From contig NZ_JACHGY010000001.1 in the NCBI RefSeq assembly GCF_014207595.1, positions 1,736,001-1,800,000 of the forward strand: 64,000 nucleotides of DNA, in the 5' to 3' direction. Below the pieces are notes generated by a model. It was given only the letters and a program-made list of their open reading frames with translations. It was not told the origin of the DNA and made no database searches. The position numbers and the translations under genes are program-made. Shown here piece by piece: positions 26,305 through 63,437 of this stretch. Source of the DNA: Algisphaera agarilytica (GTDB taxonomy: Bacteria; Planctomycetota; Phycisphaerae; Phycisphaerales; Phycisphaeraceae). Numbering within the stretch: the stretch's first letter is position 1; every line of letters begins with the position of its first letter.

Positions 26305-26411
26305 TGTAGGGTCGGGGCTCCTAAACCCAAAAAACCTCAAGGTTTCCCCCACTTAACCCCGATAAATCCGAGGGTGGGTGGCTCCCTTTCACGGACGGAA
26401 GGCTATCAGAC

Positions 26412-28007
26412 GTGCGCACGATCGCGATTATCAACCAAAAAGGCGGGTGTGGGAAAACCACCACGTCGATCAATCTCGCCGCTGTTCTCGCGTTGAAAGG
26501 CCACCGAACGCTCCTCGTGGATATGGACCCCCAGTCGCATTGCGCGCTGGGCCTTGCGGTTCCCGACACCCAGATCGAACGCAGCACCGCCGACCTGCTC
26601 CGCCACGGGCTGGACGGCTCGATGTCCGTCGGTGACATCACCTGGCAGATCAGCCGTGGGCTGGACCTCGCTCCCTCGTCCATGGACCTGGCCGCGATGG
26701 AGCAGCAGCTCGCCGCCGCCCCCGACAAAGACCGCCGGCTGGTGCAGGTGCTTTCGACGGTCCAGGACAAATACGACTTCTGCATCATCGACTGCCCGCC
26801 CAGCATCGGCCTGCTGACGTTCAACGCGTTGCGGGCCGCCGACGAGGTGCTCATCCCCGTGGAGACCGGCTACTTCGCGATGCAGGGTTCGGTTCGACAA
26901 GAACAAACCATCGACATGCTCGTCCGCCGCGTCGGCCACAAGGTGCGCTTCCGCGTGCTGCCGACGATGTACGACGTGCGGACCAAGCTGGCCCGCGAGA
27001 TTCTTGGGGAACTCAAGAAGCATTTCGCCGAGCGCGTGCTCCCGCTGGTGATCAACTTCAACAGCAAGCTCAAGGAAGCCGCGAGCTTCGGCCAGCCCAT
27101 CACCGAATACGACGCCGCGTCGCGTGGTATGCAGGACTTCGAGGCCCTCGCCGAGTGGTTGCTCACCAACCCCCCCGCCGCCCCGGTGTCGTTCGCCCCG
27201 CAGGAAGACGCGACCATCGAAAACGGCGAGTTGGCTCAGGCTCAGATGCCCACACCCGAAACCACCCGCACCCTCAGCAGCCAGGCCCCGGTCCCCGCGC
27301 CGGCCAGCCGCAGCAGCAACCCCGCCTTGAGCCGTGCCGCCGAGCTGGTCGAACGGGCCCGCGCCTTGTCCGCCCGCACCGCGAGCCTCGCCGAGCGATT
27401 CAAAGAAGACCCCGACCAGGACGCCTTCGCTCAGCCGATCGCGCCGCCCCCGCAAACACCTACTCCGCAGGCTGATCCGCTGGCCCCAGTGGAGATTCAA
27501 CCCGCCGCCCAGGTGCCCACGCCCACGGTTCGCCCCGATCTGCTGCCGCGTTCGACCCCCGCCCCGGCGGTTGCCACGACCCCGGCCTCGCCCGAGCTGA
27601 GCCCCGCAGCCGCCGCATCAGCGCCGAGCTCCAACGGTGCCGCGACCCTCGCGCCGCAGGCACCCGCGCAGACTCAGGCCGTGGAATCGCTCGAAGAAAA
27701 ACTCGCCAAGCTCTACGGCGTCCGCAACACCACCCGCGGAATCCTCTTTGTTCAACCCGCCGACACCGAACTGCCCAACGAAGGCAACCTCGCGATCGCC
27801 GGCGACTTCAACAACTGGAACCCCTCCCAGACCCCGATGACCAAGGACGAAAACCTTGGCGTCTGGCGGGCCTGCGTCAACGTCCCCCCCGGGCGTTACC
27901 GCTACCGCCTGGTGAAGAACGGCCAATGGGTCCAGGACCCGTTCAACCGCACCGTGGAATCCAACCCCTTCGGCGAGTTGAACAACATCATCGAGATCAA
28001 AGCCTAA
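26412..28007 (+). CDS. ParA/MinD-type ATPase fused to C-terminal AMPK-beta-type glycogen-binding domain (CBM48)
   Basis: A 531-residue fusion. Residues 1-255 are a ParA ATPase: INQKGGCGKTTTSINLA (deviant Walker A with signature Lys 10), LLVDMDPQSHCALGL, and FCIIDCPPSIGLLTFNAL (Walker B). Residues about 260-440 are a Pro/Ala-rich linker with one helical piece (ELVERARALSARTASLAERF). Residues about 443-531 match AMPK1-CBM: LAIAGDFNNWNPS, GVWRACVNVPPGRYRYRLV, NGQWVQDP and LNNIIEI. They keep the two Trp residues and the Asn that stack on glucans in AMPK beta (family knowledge). The start is a GTG with GGAAGG upstream. The inferred role is positioning or regulation of a polysaccharide-linked cargo; the function is unproven. 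The next gene is likely its partner. Confidence 0.85.
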   Translation: MRTIAIINQKGGCGKTTTSINLAAVLALKGHRTLLVDMDPQSHCALGLAVPDTQIERSTADLLRHGLDGSMSVGDITWQISRGLDLAPSSMDLAAMEQQLAAAPDKDRRLVQVLSTVQDKYDFCIIDCPPSIGLLTFNALRAADEVLIPVETGYFAMQGSVRQEQTIDMLVRRVGHKVRFRVLPTMYDVRTKLAREILGELKKHFAERVLPLVINFNSKLKEAASFGQPITEYDAASRGMQDFEALAEWLLTNPPAAPVSFAPQEDATIENGELAQAQMPTPETTRTLSSQAPVPAPASRSSNPALSRAAELVERARALSARTASLAERFKEDPDQDAFAQPIAPPPQTPTPQADPLAPVEIQPAAQVPTPTVRPDLLPRSTPAPAVATTPASPELSPAAAASAPSSNGAATLAPQAPAQTQAVESLEEKLAKLYGVRNTTRGILFVQPADTELPNEGNLAIAGDFNNWNPSQTPMTKDENLGVWRACVNVPPGRYRYRLVKNGQWVQDPFNRTVESNPFGELNNIIEIKA

Positions 28008-28101: not shown

Positions 28102-29799
28102 ATGGACGAGAAAACCAACAACACACTCGATGCCTTGGCCGAACTGTTCCTCACCGAGGACCAGCCGGGCGGCGACGCGTTGTCCGGCCCCGCCCCGATC
28201 AAGATGCGCCCCAAGGCCGCTCAGGTCGCCCGGCCGTCGTCCATGAACGAGCCACCCGATCCCACCCTCGGCGAACTCGACGAGCTCACCCAGGAACTGC
28301 TCGGGGATGCCGCCGCGCTGTTGGCGAGCTACCAGGACACCGATCACACCGCGAGCGATTACCAGCAGCCCCCAGCCGACACCCCGGCTCACGATGAAGA
28401 CGGGCCGAAGCTGCGGCTGGCGGGCGGAGAAGATGATTCGGAATCGAGCGACCGGTCGAGCGGGAGGCCGCAACCGATTATCGGTGTGGCCGAGGCCGTG
28501 GTGCTGGGCAACCTCCCCGGCATGGCCGGTCCCTGGCTGACGCAGTACGGCCAACTGCTGGCCCAGCAAGACGGCGCGGTTGCGATCCTGCACGTGGATA
28601 CCGACAGCATCGATCTCGAAGTGATCGAACCTACTCAACACGATGCCTCGAACGACCCGGCCGCGGCGGCGTTCCGAGGCCCGAGCCTCCGGGTACCGCC
28701 GGGCGGTTTTGCGGGGCGTGACATGATCGCGGTGTTGGAGCAGCTGTGCCGATCCCGCGTCTTGCCGGTGCGGACGATCCTGTTGCACATGGACCCGACG
28801 CCCGAGGCGTTGCCCCGTCTGTTGGACCTGGACTACTGGACCCTGCTTAGTGGCGCGGACGACGCGGCGATCGTAGCGGGCTACCGGTTGCTCAAATCGC
28901 TGATCGAATCCGATGACGAAGCCGCTCGTGCCCATGTCGGCCTGATGGTGGTGGGTTCGGATAAAGACGCGGGGCAGAAAGCAGCAAAGAAGCTGCGATC
29001 TGCCGTGGCGAACTTCCTGCATACGCCTGTCGAACTCATCGGCTACCAGCAGAAGATGATTCCTGCACGCTGCCGCACGCTCGGCACGTTTACCGAACTC
29101 CAAACCCTGTGGCCGCGCTTGATCGATTGGCTGTCGAAGCTCGAAGCCCCGACCGTCGATCCCGCTACCGACGTTCAACCCGAACGCGCGCCCGTGGTTT
29201 CGGCCATCGATACGTTTGAGTCCGCAGAGGATGTCTCCGCCGCTTCAGAAGCGACGCACGCCACGCTGCCGCCGCTCGACGAGCCGGTCGAGGTGCAAGC
29301 CACCCCCGAACCCAAGCCGTCTTCGGATACGCCCGCCTGGGAACTCACGCCCGAGCCCACCGACGCCCAAGAAATCGATCTGTTCAGCCTGATCGATTCG
29401 GACGCCCGTGCCGCGGCCTCGATCCCCGGCGGCCTGGCCCTCGAAGCCCGCTGCCCCAGCCAGCCGCACACCCAGCTCGCTCTGGATTCCATCGGCCGGC
29501 TGCATCTGTTGCACCGTCACGATTCGGCCGAAGGCGACCCGCCCACGCCGAAGGAAGCGATCGTGGAACTCGTTGCGGTTCGTGACTGGGCTCGCCAGCA
29601 CCGCCAGCTGCTGCAACTCACGGAGCGCGGCCGCCGCTTCGACCCGGATGCCGACCCCGTGCTGCACCTGTTCACCGACCGGGCCGACCTCTCGGTCAAC
29701 CTCGTTGCCCGCCTGGGCGATCTGCTGAAGCTGCACCTGTTGCGTGATGTGGCGGTCGGCGACGAGCGGACCTTCTTCTGCACGCCGCTCTCGGCGTAA
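28102..29799 (+). CDS. Unknown 565-residue protein, probable partner of the ParA-CBM fusion
   Basis: Not recognised. Residues 1-125 are acidic and low in complexity. A central alpha/beta domain (about 130-345) has the strand-helix rhythm of MinD/FleN-type SIMIBI proteins: VVLGNLPGMAGPWLTQYGQLLAQ where a P-loop would be, AILHVDTDSIDLEVI, and YWTLLSGADDAAIVAGYRLLK followed by HVGLMVVGSDKDAGQKAAKK. There is no GKT/S, so nucleotide binding seems lost (inference). A Pro/Glu linker (about 350-440) precedes a C-terminal domain (about 445-565). It lies 94 bases after the ParA-CBM gene on the same strand. No Shine-Dalgarno precedes the ATG. Confidence 0.7.
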   Translation: MDEKTNNTLDALAELFLTEDQPGGDALSGPAPIKMRPKAAQVARPSSMNEPPDPTLGELDELTQELLGDAAALLASYQDTDHTASDYQQPPADTPAHDEDGPKLRLAGGEDDSESSDRSSGRPQPIIGVAEAVVLGNLPGMAGPWLTQYGQLLAQQDGAVAILHVDTDSIDLEVIEPTQHDASNDPAAAAFRGPSLRVPPGGFAGRDMIAVLEQLCRSRVLPVRTILLHMDPTPEALPRLLDLDYWTLLSGADDAAIVAGYRLLKSLIESDDEAARAHVGLMVVGSDKDAGQKAAKKLRSAVANFLHTPVELIGYQQKMIPARCRTLGTFTELQTLWPRLIDWLSKLEAPTVDPATDVQPERAPVVSAIDTFESAEDVSAASEATHATLPPLDEPVEVQATPEPKPSSDTPAWELTPEPTDAQEIDLFSLIDSDARAAASIPGGLALEARCPSQPHTQLALDSIGRLHLLHRHDSAEGDPPTPKEAIVELVAVRDWARQHRQLLQLTERGRRFDPDADPVLHLFTDRADLSVNLVARLGDLLKLHLLRDVAVGDERTFFCTPLSA

Positions 29800-61126: not shown

Positions 61127-63013
61127 TCATCCGCCGGCGATCGACCGGGCCAGGGCGAGGTAGTCCTTGGCGCCGTTGGAGTCGGGGGCGTAGGCGTGGA
61201 CCGACTGGCCGAAGCTGGGGGCCTCGGCGAGCTTGATGTTGCGGCGGACCGGCGGCTGGAAGACCTGGCCCTCGGCCCACGGCTGGGTGGTGCCGCGGGC
61301 CGCCTCGAAGAAGCCTTCGAGTTCACCGATGACTTCGCTGGCCAGCAGCGTGTTGCCTTCGTGCATGCAGAGGACGACGCCAGCGACGGTGAGGTTGGGG
61401 TTGATGCCCTGGCGGACCATGCCGATCGTCTCGAAGAGCTTGGTCATACCTTGCAGCGCGAGGAAGTGGGCCTGCATCGGCACGACGATCTGCGAAGCGA
61501 GAGTCAGCGCGTTGATCGTGAGCAGGCCCAGGCTCGGCGGGCAGTCGATGAGCACGTAGTCGAACTGCTGGATCAGGTCTTTGCACTTGTTGCGGAGGAT
61601 GGTTTGGGCCAGGCCCGTGGCGATCATGTCCGACAGTTCGGATTCGACGCCGGCGAGGTTCGTCTCGGCGGGGAGCACCGCTAGGCGTTTGTCGTCCCGC
61701 GCGGTGTAACGCACGACCTCCATCGCCGTGGTCTCGGGATCGGTGAACAAGTCGTAGTTGGACTTCTCGATCTCGTCCGGCTCGATGCCCAGCGAGAGCG
61801 TGAGGTGGGCCTGCGGGTCGAGGTCGATGCAAAGGACGTTGAGCCCGAGGTTGGCCAGTGCCGCACCGACGTTCACGGCGGTGGTGGTCTTGCCGACGCC
61901 GCCCTTCTGGTTCATGAGAGCCAGGACGCGGGTGGCGTCGGGCTTGGGCAGGGGCTCGAGGGATTTCGGACTTGCGATTTCGGATTTCGGGGTTTCGGGC
62001 TCCGAAGCCGCGGGTTCATCTTCAATCGAGTCCGTGTCTTGAGATGCTGCGGGCTCGGTTCCCCCTTCTGCCGGGATAGGGCTGGGGTGAGGGGGCTCGG
62101 GGGTTGGCTCAGATGCCGTGGGCGCATCAGTTTCGGCCGACACCGCGGCGGCTGGTTCCACTTGATCAGGCACGGAAGGCTCAACTGCGACTTGCGTGCC
62201 CTCGTCCGACCCGCTTTGCGGGCCACCTTCGCCCGGCGGGAGAAGGGTTAGCAATGCCTCTGCAGCGCGGTCGCCCAGAGTGAGCAGGGATTGACCGTTG
62301 ACGTGCCAGGCATCGCCTTCGATTTGATGTAGATCGTCAGTGTTGATCCACGTCGCCATCGGGTCGGCCTGGGCGACCTGCACCTGGAGTTGGCGGATGA
62401 CGTGATCGTTGCTGTGATTGGGTTCAGTGGCAGGCCGTATGCGGACGATGGTTTTTGGCGCGGGTTGGCCGTCGTTCAACTCATCGCTGATGAGTTCGAA
62501 GATCGTTTGCAGCTGTTGGCTATAGGCGTGGGGGTCGGGGTTATTGAGGCTGGTGTCGGATTCGCCCTGATACCAGATGATCCCCGCGAGACGGGGGTTG
62601 AGTCCTTCTTCAAGCAGGGATTCCCAGGCCTCGGCCGACGCAGCGAGCATGAGGTTGGTCAGCGTGGACGGGTCGTCGTGGTCTTCGGGCCGCCAGTCGG
62701 CGTAGAGCGAGGTGCCTCCGCGATCGGATTTAATGAGGGCGACGGGTGTGTTGCTGCGGGCCGCGAGGGTGTGTCCCAGCGAGAGTTCGAGGCCGAACCC
62801 GCCGGGGTGTTCGCCGCTGTTGGGCGCGAGCGCCGACCATTGGCGGACGTGCGGCCGATCGAGGCGTTCGTTGCCGGGCGAGTTGAGCGGCGCAAAGTAG
62901 ATGCGAGCCGAGGCGTGCGGGGCCTTGAGCACATCGGGCAGTTCGTGGCTTTGGCCGCTGCCGGACATATTGGATTGGCCGGCCAGGAGGTAGACGTCGA
63001 TCGGATCGGGCAT
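61127..63013 (-). CDS. SASA/CE6-type carbohydrate esterase fused to ParA ATPase
   Basis: One 628-residue frame from the ATG at 63013. Residues 1-258 are an SGNH-type sialate-O-acetylesterase/acetylxylan esterase-like domain: VYLLAGQSNMSGSGQSH (nucleophile Ser 14), IIWYQGESDTS (block with Gly/Glu), and DAWHVNGQSLLTLGDRAAEA (Asp 234, His 237). Residues 259-360 are a Pro/Glu/Ser-rich linker. Residues 362-628 are ParA: LMNQKGGVGKTTTAVNVG, LCIDLDPQAHLTLSLG and YVLIDCPPSLGLLTINAL. No ATG, GTG or TTG lies just before the ParA part that would restore its first strand, so a fused product is likely. There is no signal peptide, so the esterase would be cytoplasmic. It follows PadR by 46 bases. Confidence 0.85.
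   Translation of the reverse strand: MPDPIDVYLLAGQSNMSGSGQSHELPDVLKAPHASARIYFAPLNSPGNERLDRPHVRQWSALAPNSGEHPGGFGLELSLGHTLAARSNTPVALIKSDRGGTSLYADWRPEDHDDPSTLTNLMLAASAEAWESLLEEGLNPRLAGIIWYQGESDTSLNNPDPHAYSQQLQTIFELISDELNDGQPAPKTIVRIRPATEPNHSNDHVIRQLQVQVAQADPMATWINTDDLHQIEGDAWHVNGQSLLTLGDRAAEALLTLLPPGEGGPQSGSDEGTQVAVEPSVPDQVEPAAAVSAETDAPTASEPTPEPPHPSPIPAEGGTEPAASQDTDSIEDEPAASEPETPKSEIASPKSLEPLPKPDATRVLALMNQKGGVGKTTTAVNVGAALANLGLNVLCIDLDPQAHLTLSLGIEPDEIEKSNYDLFTDPETTAMEVVRYTARDDKRLAVLPAETNLAGVESELSDMIATGLAQTILRNKCKDLIQQFDYVLIDCPPSLGLLTINALTLASQIVVPMQAHFLALQGMTKLFETIGMVRQGINPNLTVAGVVLCMHEGNTLLASEVIGELEGFFEAARGTTQPWAEGQVFQPPVRRNIKLAEAPSFGQSVHAYAPDSNGAKDYLALARSIAGG
61961..62249. repeat. Dispersed-repeat sequences translated as the esterase-ParA linker
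   Basis: Three repeat-like pieces lie in the linker-coding region. 61961-62007 holds heptad steps such as TCCGAAA, TCGCAAG, TCCGAAA (minus strand). 62061-62096 (CCCCCTTCTGCCGGGAT...GGGTGAGGGGG) and 62198-62249 (CCCTCGTCCGACCCGC...GGGAGAAGGG) resemble halves of the widespread CCCTCACCC/GGGAGAAGGG palindromes seen between genes in many bacteria. Confidence 0.6.
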
Positions 63014-63059
63014 GCTGGGGGCATTGTAAAGAGTGCGCGCACTTCCGCTTTTGGCGGGA

Positions 63060-63437
63060 TCAGACCGGCAGCGTCGGTCGGGCGATACGGCGGAGCGATG
63101 GCAGGACGACCGACTGCATCTGGGCGAGCATCGCTTGCCAATCCGCGGCGTAGGCCCGGTACTGCTCACGGCCCACGTCGGTGACGCGGTATCGCTTGCG
63201 GGCGCGGCCGCCGACGGTTGCGGCCTCGGCATGGATCAGGCCCTGCTCGGCAAGGCGGTGGAGCAGCGGGTAGAGGGTGCCGTAGGGCAGGGGCTGCCCG
63301 GTAGTCAGTTGGAGCTGTTTCTGGATCGCGTACCCGTGGGCCGGCCGGTCGGCCAAGACCGAAAGCACCAGCACCTCGAGGCTGGCTCGAAACAGGTCGC
63401 GGCGGTATCGGGGGGCGGTTTCGGGCATGGGCATCAC
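63060..63437 (-). CDS. PadR-family transcriptional regulator
   Basis: A 125-residue winged-helix repressor: LEVLVLSVLADRPAHGYAIQKQL, GTLYPLLHRLAEQGLIHAE (recognition helix and wing) and RKRYRVTDVGREQYRAY, followed by a C-terminal dimerisation helix. The family typically senses small molecules or toxic compounds. GTG, ATG and ATG codons lie at 63437, 63434 and 63428. A perfect palindrome abuts them and is the likely autoregulatory operator. It is first in a PadR/esterase-ParA unit and divergent from atpD. Confidence 0.92.
   Translation of the reverse strand: MMPMPETAPRYRRDLFRASLEVLVLSVLADRPAHGYAIQKQLQLTTGQPLPYGTLYPLLHRLAEQGLIHAEAATVGGRARKRYRVTDVGREQYRAYAADWQAMLAQMQSVVLPSLRRIARPTLPV

Follow-up and report, generated by a model that had tools for sequence, protein, structure and literature searches.

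We tentatively read ParA-CBM, a ParA-type ATPase of Algisphaera agarilytica that ends in an AMPK-beta-type CBM48 domain, and the partner protein encoded beside it as an ancient spatial system of the ParA type with a link to alpha-glucan, a reading that is quite possible, if a little short of probable. The anatomy of the protein, its conservation, its adjacency to the partner gene and its place in a single clade are demonstrated at the level of sequence, and a role in glycogen is plausible. Such a system may tie the sugar store of the cell to its internal layout. Among the readings of ParA-CBM we rank the positioning or tethering of glycogen first, a glucan-sensing switch second and a ligand other than glycogen third. 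The gene lies within a stretch of 64,000 nucleotides that was analysed as a whole (the window), and its features are as follows.

26397 to 26402, forward strand: GGAAGG, the likely ribosome-binding site of the ParA-CBM gene, read directly 9 nt upstream
26412 to 28007, forward strand: ParA-CBM protein, 531 aa, from a GTG start, with Pfam matches and kept across the class
26412 to 27176, forward strand: Soj-type ParA ATPase domain, residues 1-255, Walker A KGGCGKTT, called from AAA_31, the Soj-matching model and invariant catalytic residues
27177 to 27689, forward strand: Pro/Ala-rich linker, of low model confidence except for one helix at residues 304-332
27690 to 27788, forward strand: conserved lead-in to the CBM (EKLAKLYGVR...), common to the class, with invariant residues in alignments A1 and A7
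27789 to 28001, forward strand: AMPK-beta-type CBM48, residues 460-530 (AMPK1_CBM 7e-11; 1z0n 1.9e-10)
27816 to 27818, forward strand: W469, aligned with W100 of AMPK beta-1, invariant in A1 and A6
27927 to 27929, forward strand: W506, aligned with W133 of AMPK beta-1, invariant in A1 and A6
27981 to 27983, forward strand: N524, aligned with N150 of AMPK beta-1, its residue states read across the orthologs

The first-pass annotation had described one frame holding a complete ParA ATPase, a Pro/Ala linker and a C-terminal CBM, and its limits, 26412-28007, are exact. Pfam finds the domains in that frame, including AAA_31 at residues 1-174 (6.8e-48) and a match to CbiA (4.8e-20). ATPases with the deviant Walker A of the ParA/MinD group feature a signature lysine, a Walker A lysine, a Walker A' aspartate and a Walker B aspartate; ParA-CBM has the full set in K10, K15, D39 and D127, each invariant in 20 aligned family rows that bear several phylum labels. 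The structural model of ParA-CBM, made with 20 rows (mean pLDDT 77.9), matches Soj chain 9a6n over 250 residues (Z 39.3, rmsd 1.4) and also 6iub (Z 37.7, rmsd 1.5), which is a Soj-like fold, and falls below pLDDT 50 in most segments of the linker between residues 266 and 422 outside the helix at 304-332. The matches listed by the structure searches were to the ParA and MinD-like domains, with no fold match among them for the CBM or for the C-terminus of the partner. ParA-CBM resembles the Soj/ParA of ParABS in fold and catalytic residues, but differs from it in carrying a C-terminal CBM48, in belonging to a separate clade and in its Walker A KGGCGKT and DPQxH signatures (20 rows). Within these two signatures, Cys13 and His43 do not vary among 20 aligned rows of the family, and the aligned solved Soj chains have V and N at these positions.

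The closeness of the ATPase domain to Soj (Z 39.3) would also suit a ParA that partitions chromosomes in the usual way and whose tail is decorative. Given that the same genome holds a separate Soj-type ParA (61127-63232, reverse strand), that the ParA-CBM family forms a separate clade, and that the partner lacks a ParB Pfam domain, we regard this explanation, which was already disfavoured, as highly improbable. On account of the separate Soj-type ParA, we rejected the view that ParA-CBM is the chromosomal Soj itself.

The tree on which the clade rests comprised 92 ParA domains, namely all 80 named loci, 10 class orthologs and the window's two ParAs. All 26 rows with a CBM and 5 CBM-less relatives fell into one clade (support 100/100), with 61 ordinary ParAs, this genome's own Soj-type ParA included, outside it; the simplest history of the family is one fusion and several losses. 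KGGCGK occurs in 31/31 family rows versus 0/61 of the other ParAs of the tree, a contrast that is partly selected because NQKGGCGK served as a search pattern in the scan of named genomes, from which the best 80 matches were taken. One locus outside the tree, L262, combines a CBM with KGGVGK. Among the best 80 matches of that scan, relatives matching over the full span are labelled Omnitrophota, Auribacterota, Myxococcota/Deltaproteobacteria, Rokubacteria and Gammaproteobacteria, and a CBM-less relative is labelled Nitrospirae; these labels may err, since the genomes are mostly MAGs.

The second ParA of the window has a domain architecture of its own. A SASA carbohydrate-esterase domain (residues 78-328, 4.7e-28) is joined in frame, via a Pro-rich linker, to the Soj-type ParA (1e-50). 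The ParA part was matched in 40/40 other genomes of the order searched, and no match across both domains was among those listed for these 40 genomes; the SASA-ParA protein may be peculiar to this genome.

Pfam scores the C-terminus of ParA-CBM as AMPK1_CBM over residues 460-530, at 42.6 bits against a curated cut-off of 26.8, in the same protein as AAA_31, and also as CBM_48 (3.4e-07, above its cut-off). The nearest solved CBMs are those of AMPK beta-1 and beta-2, and the alignment with them pairs FNNW with FNNW, GQW with GQW and NNII with NNII, which bears out the earlier call of an AMPK1-CBM/CBM48 module keeping the NNW, GQW and NNII positions. Passages of PMC4032982 name W100, K126, W133 and N150 of AMPK beta-1 as critical for carbohydrate contact, and the equivalents in ParA-CBM are W469, R499, W506 and N524, with arginine in place of lysine. 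W469 and W506 are invariant in 20 family rows labelled as several phyla, and the N524 position is N in 15/20 and D in 5/20 of them (counted by eye). The lead-in is conserved as well: G436 is invariant in alignment A1, which holds 38/41 ParA rows (L063, L065 and L066, where the CBM is absent or decayed, were left out), and Y12 and G13 are invariant in alignment A7. The tail of ParA-CBM is therefore like the CBM48 of AMPK beta in sequence and pocket residues, and unlike it in sitting on a bacterial ParA ATPase and not in a kinase complex. Since AMPK-type CBM48s serve enzymes and regulation as well, the presence of the domain does not imply positioning.

Orthologs were taken as the matches of a search of the class (198 genomes) with E <1e-60, plus the copy in G039 (1.4e-57), which gives 124 with the window's own copy included. 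By the CBM model, the CBM is in frame in 116/124, one of the other 8 (G109) having it in another frame, and the pocket reads W/W/N-or-D in 106/124. A chance or artefactual origin of the fusion is ruled out by this conserved frame and pocket across the class. Six genomes (G102, G155, G177, G185, G189 and G197) keep ParA and partner with the CBM absent; the CBM is thus dispensable there, which we count against the positioning of glycogen. When the phylum sample (392 genomes) was searched, the family-type CBM gave 25 rows of at least 88 bits, 24 of them within the class, and the sole row outside it, in G252, is likewise a ParA-CBM (397 aa). We found no description of a ParA joined to an AMPK-beta-type CBM in the openly licensed literature, which agrees with the first-pass annotation, whose author knew of no characterised protein with this architecture; presumably domain databases list it automatically.

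Directly downstream of ParA-CBM lies the partner gene, with the following features.

28102 to 29799, forward strand: adjacent partner gene, 565 aa, of a family found directly downstream in 71/124 orthologs
28135 to 28155, forward strand: N-terminal motif LAELFLT of the partner, a candidate ParA-binding peptide, from the motif profile of 69/71 partners
28474 to 29148, forward strand: MinD/FlhG-fold domain of the partner lacking a P-loop (GNLPGMAGPWL instead), from the model and 23 aligned rows
29470 to 29787, forward strand: C-terminal alpha/beta domain of the partner, matching a separate third gene in other-phyla loci

The 71 partners lie on the same strand directly 3' of ParA at a median gap of 19 bp; 13/71 overlap ParA and 45/71 start within 100 bp (58/71 together). 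An adjacent partner is absent in 53/124 orthologs, which also counts against the positioning reading. In a class-wide search that used the partner alignment and scored up to 7 candidates per genome, 65/66 of the strong partner rows listed (>79 bits) shared a contig with a ParA ortholog (counted by eye), with G115:C303 as the sole exception. None of the listed rows above 79 bits came from the 53 without an adjacent partner, so no strong partner copy was seen elsewhere in them. The earlier interpretation, sound in its domain call, had said nothing of the partner gene, of how far the family extends or of the lineages that have lost the CBM.

The middle domain of the partner is modelled with a fold like that of FlhG 4rz3 (Z 13.4, rmsd 3.8, 205 residues), in a model of low overall confidence (mean pLDDT 53.2), although pLDDT rises to some 70-84 in places within the domain. 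A P-loop (G-x(0-4)-GK[ST]) is present in 0/23 rows of alignment A2, which holds 23/28 candidate downstream genes (L038, L040, L046, L058 and L061 were left out). Thus the predicted fold is shared with the MinD ATPases FlhG and FleN, whereas the missing P-loop (23/23 rows) and the extra N- and C-terminal parts set the partner apart from them. The protein at 28102-29799 matched no Pfam family at E values up to 1, ParB domains included; it is not the adjacent ParB with DNA-binding domains by which ParABS is recognised. Equivalents of the partner in other phyla are shorter, and 2/8 aligned rows of A3 (L079 and L080) have a P-loop, these two also scoring MinD/ParA Pfam families over cut-off. Profile comparison relates the class partners to the shorter other-phyla partners (98.7%, E 2e-16), those other-phyla partners in turn to the family of ParA-CBM (96.7%, E 3.2e-10), and the C-terminus of the class partners to the third gene of other-phyla loci (95.1%, E 3e-8; hhalign, A2 against A4), with a control comparison with the CBM at 0.1%. 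To the eye only, the third protein of those loci gives the impression of a PD-(D/E)xK-like fold.

At the N-terminus, a profile of 69/71 partners (two with starts more than 450 bp away were left out) gives the consensus [LI][AS]x[LV]FL[STG], with frequencies, pseudocounts included, of 0.84 for L at the sixth position and 0.72 for F at the fifth; the profile forces a motif window in every row, and this looks spurious in a few (G009, G019). Outside the class, 4/10 partners (L079, L082, L089 and L262) begin with LG[RK][GS][LI], a further likeness to ParABS in that the neighbour has an LGRGL-like N-terminal peptide. Of the 59 loci of ordinary ParAs in which a frame lies downstream, 49 have one or more downstream frames with this beginning, and we take these frames to be ParB. 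Passages of PMC10241942 and PMC12204374 describe partners of such ATPases that bind via a charged, disordered N-terminus. From the N-terminal motif and this published binding mode, we infer that the partner is a candidate cognate activator of ParA-CBM.

In the mechanism that we propose, the ATP-bound ParA-CBM dimer would bind nucleoid DNA, as Soj does, and its pair of flexibly linked CBMs would hold glycogen or glycogen-bound enzymes. The N-terminal peptide of the partner would dock on the ATP dimer like that of ParB and would trigger hydrolysis and release. Through cycles of binding and release, glycogen would then be distributed along the nucleoid or fixed in place on it, and would be divided between the daughter cells. 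Since the glucan-binding module sits, unusually, on the ATPase and not on the partner, two cargo links are expected in the chain, the CBM holding glucan and the partner holding some target. The proposal recalls McdAB, in which, according to passages of PMC12204374, a ParA-type ATPase positions a metabolic body and the partner binds by its N-terminus; the likeness lies in the proposed way of working. In contrast to McdAB, where it is the partner that binds the carboxysome, the ParA-CBM ATPase would itself bear the sugar-binding module.

Several features lead us to favour the positioning of glycogen: the kept pocket, the single clade, the adjacent partner, the ParB-like motif and the FlhG-like fold. 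The glycogen genes supply others. A GT3 glycogen synthase (8.0e-218) is encoded 36 kb away from ParA-CBM in this genome, which also has a phosphorylase (7.9e-29) but yielded no GlgA or GlgB over cut-off. GT3 synthases of PVC bacteria are discussed in passages of PMC11046441, and a GT3 synthase is present in 9/9 sampled genomes of the host's family and, at E <1e-100, in 90/198 class genomes. GlgA over cut-off was found in 1/198 class genomes and GlgB in 21/198; on these counts, with neither gene in this genome, we rejected the classical glycogen pathway as context. Within the order only, the pocket is intact in 16/18 orthologs from genomes with GT3 or GlgA over cut-off versus 4/16 from those without (Fisher p 0.0003, relatives counted as independent). 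For the whole class the figures are 47/51 with a synthase versus 59/73 without (p 0.12, not significant), which we count against the positioning reading. In family f4, GT3 is absent in 10/10 genomes and the pocket is lost or decayed in 8/10; the intact pockets are those of G125, which has the sole over-cut-off GlgA of the class sample, and of G167, which has neither GT3 nor GlgA. In G063, a genome with no ortholog at threshold, a stand-alone 98-aa AMPK-type CBM heads a gene row (L264:1784-8311, reverse strand) that continues with an 857-aa probable glucan phosphorylase (by eye), a GlgA-like gene (279 bits) and a GlgB-like gene (220 bits), the last two below their curated cut-offs. Two Omnitrophota loci (L087 and L088) have GH57 genes two upstream of ParA. 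The GT3 synthase and phosphorylase, the tracking of the pocket within the order, the G063 row and the GH57 genes all argue for the positioning of glycogen. The role first suggested for this gene, in a system that would position or regulate glycogen granules or glycogen enzymes on the nucleoid, is partly supported, by the indirect evidence of the conserved pocket, GT3 in 9/9 of the family, decay of the pocket in those genomes of the order that lack the synthases (a comparison confined to the order), the G063 row and the GH57 genes.

The 59/73 intact pockets in orthologs from genomes lacking GT3 or GlgA over cut-off would also suit a CBM kept as an adaptor or dimer module, the ligand being a protein or another sugar polymer instead of glycogen. 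Four Omnitrophota loci with upstream proteins that look lectin-like by eye point the same way, as they make other sugars possible. We nevertheless think this rather improbable, because the equivalents of the tryptophans that passages of PMC4032982 place in carbohydrate contact are invariant, with N or D at the N150 position, in 20/20 rows, and because the class-wide synthase counts cover two types of synthase, GT3 and GlgA. In the same four Omnitrophota loci (L086, L087, L088 and L090), the gene that precedes ParA-CBM encodes a small protein with LAxxYL or LAKTYF in its N-terminal part and, by eye, a single membrane helix and an outer domain that resembles a lectin; the adaptor may thus differ among phyla.

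When the genes of 41 Planctomycetota neighbourhoods were clustered by similarity, no group of glycogen genes was conspicuous, and the window neighbours scanned include LpxK, Maf, a PfkB/cytidylyltransferase, DnaJ and ClpB; we count both observations against positioning. In five other-phyla loci a MerR gene lies just upstream (L081, L082, L091 and L124 by Pfam, L084 by eye), one of the five, L082, being CBM-less. These MerR genes would suit a glucan-sensing switch, in which glycogen on the CBM sets the state of the ATPase, and ParA and partner act on transcription or the cell cycle, much as FleN acts on FleQ and the AMPK-beta CBM acts on its kinase. A switch would also be consistent with the top solved-structure match of the ParA-CBM model, which is a Soj-NrdR model, with the fold of the partner, nearest to FlhG/FleN chains of which some were solved with FleQ, and with the conserved pocket, which it shares with the positioning reading. 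However, no MerR was found among the window genes scanned around ParA-CBM, and the ParB-like peptide, though compatible with a switch, points to cycling on a surface, so we consider the switch unlikely.

Returning to the positioning of glycogen, we think it possible, if doubtful, that the pair represents a general bacterial system for positioning and sharing glycogen, in which an ATPase that grips its cargo by a CBM48 would cycle on the nucleoid under the action of a ParB-like peptide borne by a dead MinD-like partner. The ParA/MinD ATPases are responsible for placing chromosomes, plasmids, flagella, chemosensors and carboxysomes. An ATPase, and not an adaptor, that grips the cargo would to our knowledge be the first among ParA systems, and we know of no other such system with a polysaccharide as cargo. 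In passages of PMC10241942, many ParA/MinD ATPases "are called orphans", their partner not being identified. Here an orphan ParA subfamily gains candidates for its ligand (alpha-glucan) and its partner together, and small proteins would suffice to test both. If the proposal is true, it would reveal how bacteria place and inherit, or sense, an energy store, by a route parallel to the eukaryotic AMPK-beta glycogen sensor.

One of the 24 class rows found with the family-type CBM is a stand-alone protein of 191 aa in G039 (L263:1073-1648), with an intact-looking CBM and a similar lead-in motif. Among the sampled members of family f1, G039 is the only one in which the pocket of ParA-CBM has decayed, as if the CBM had moved off ParA.
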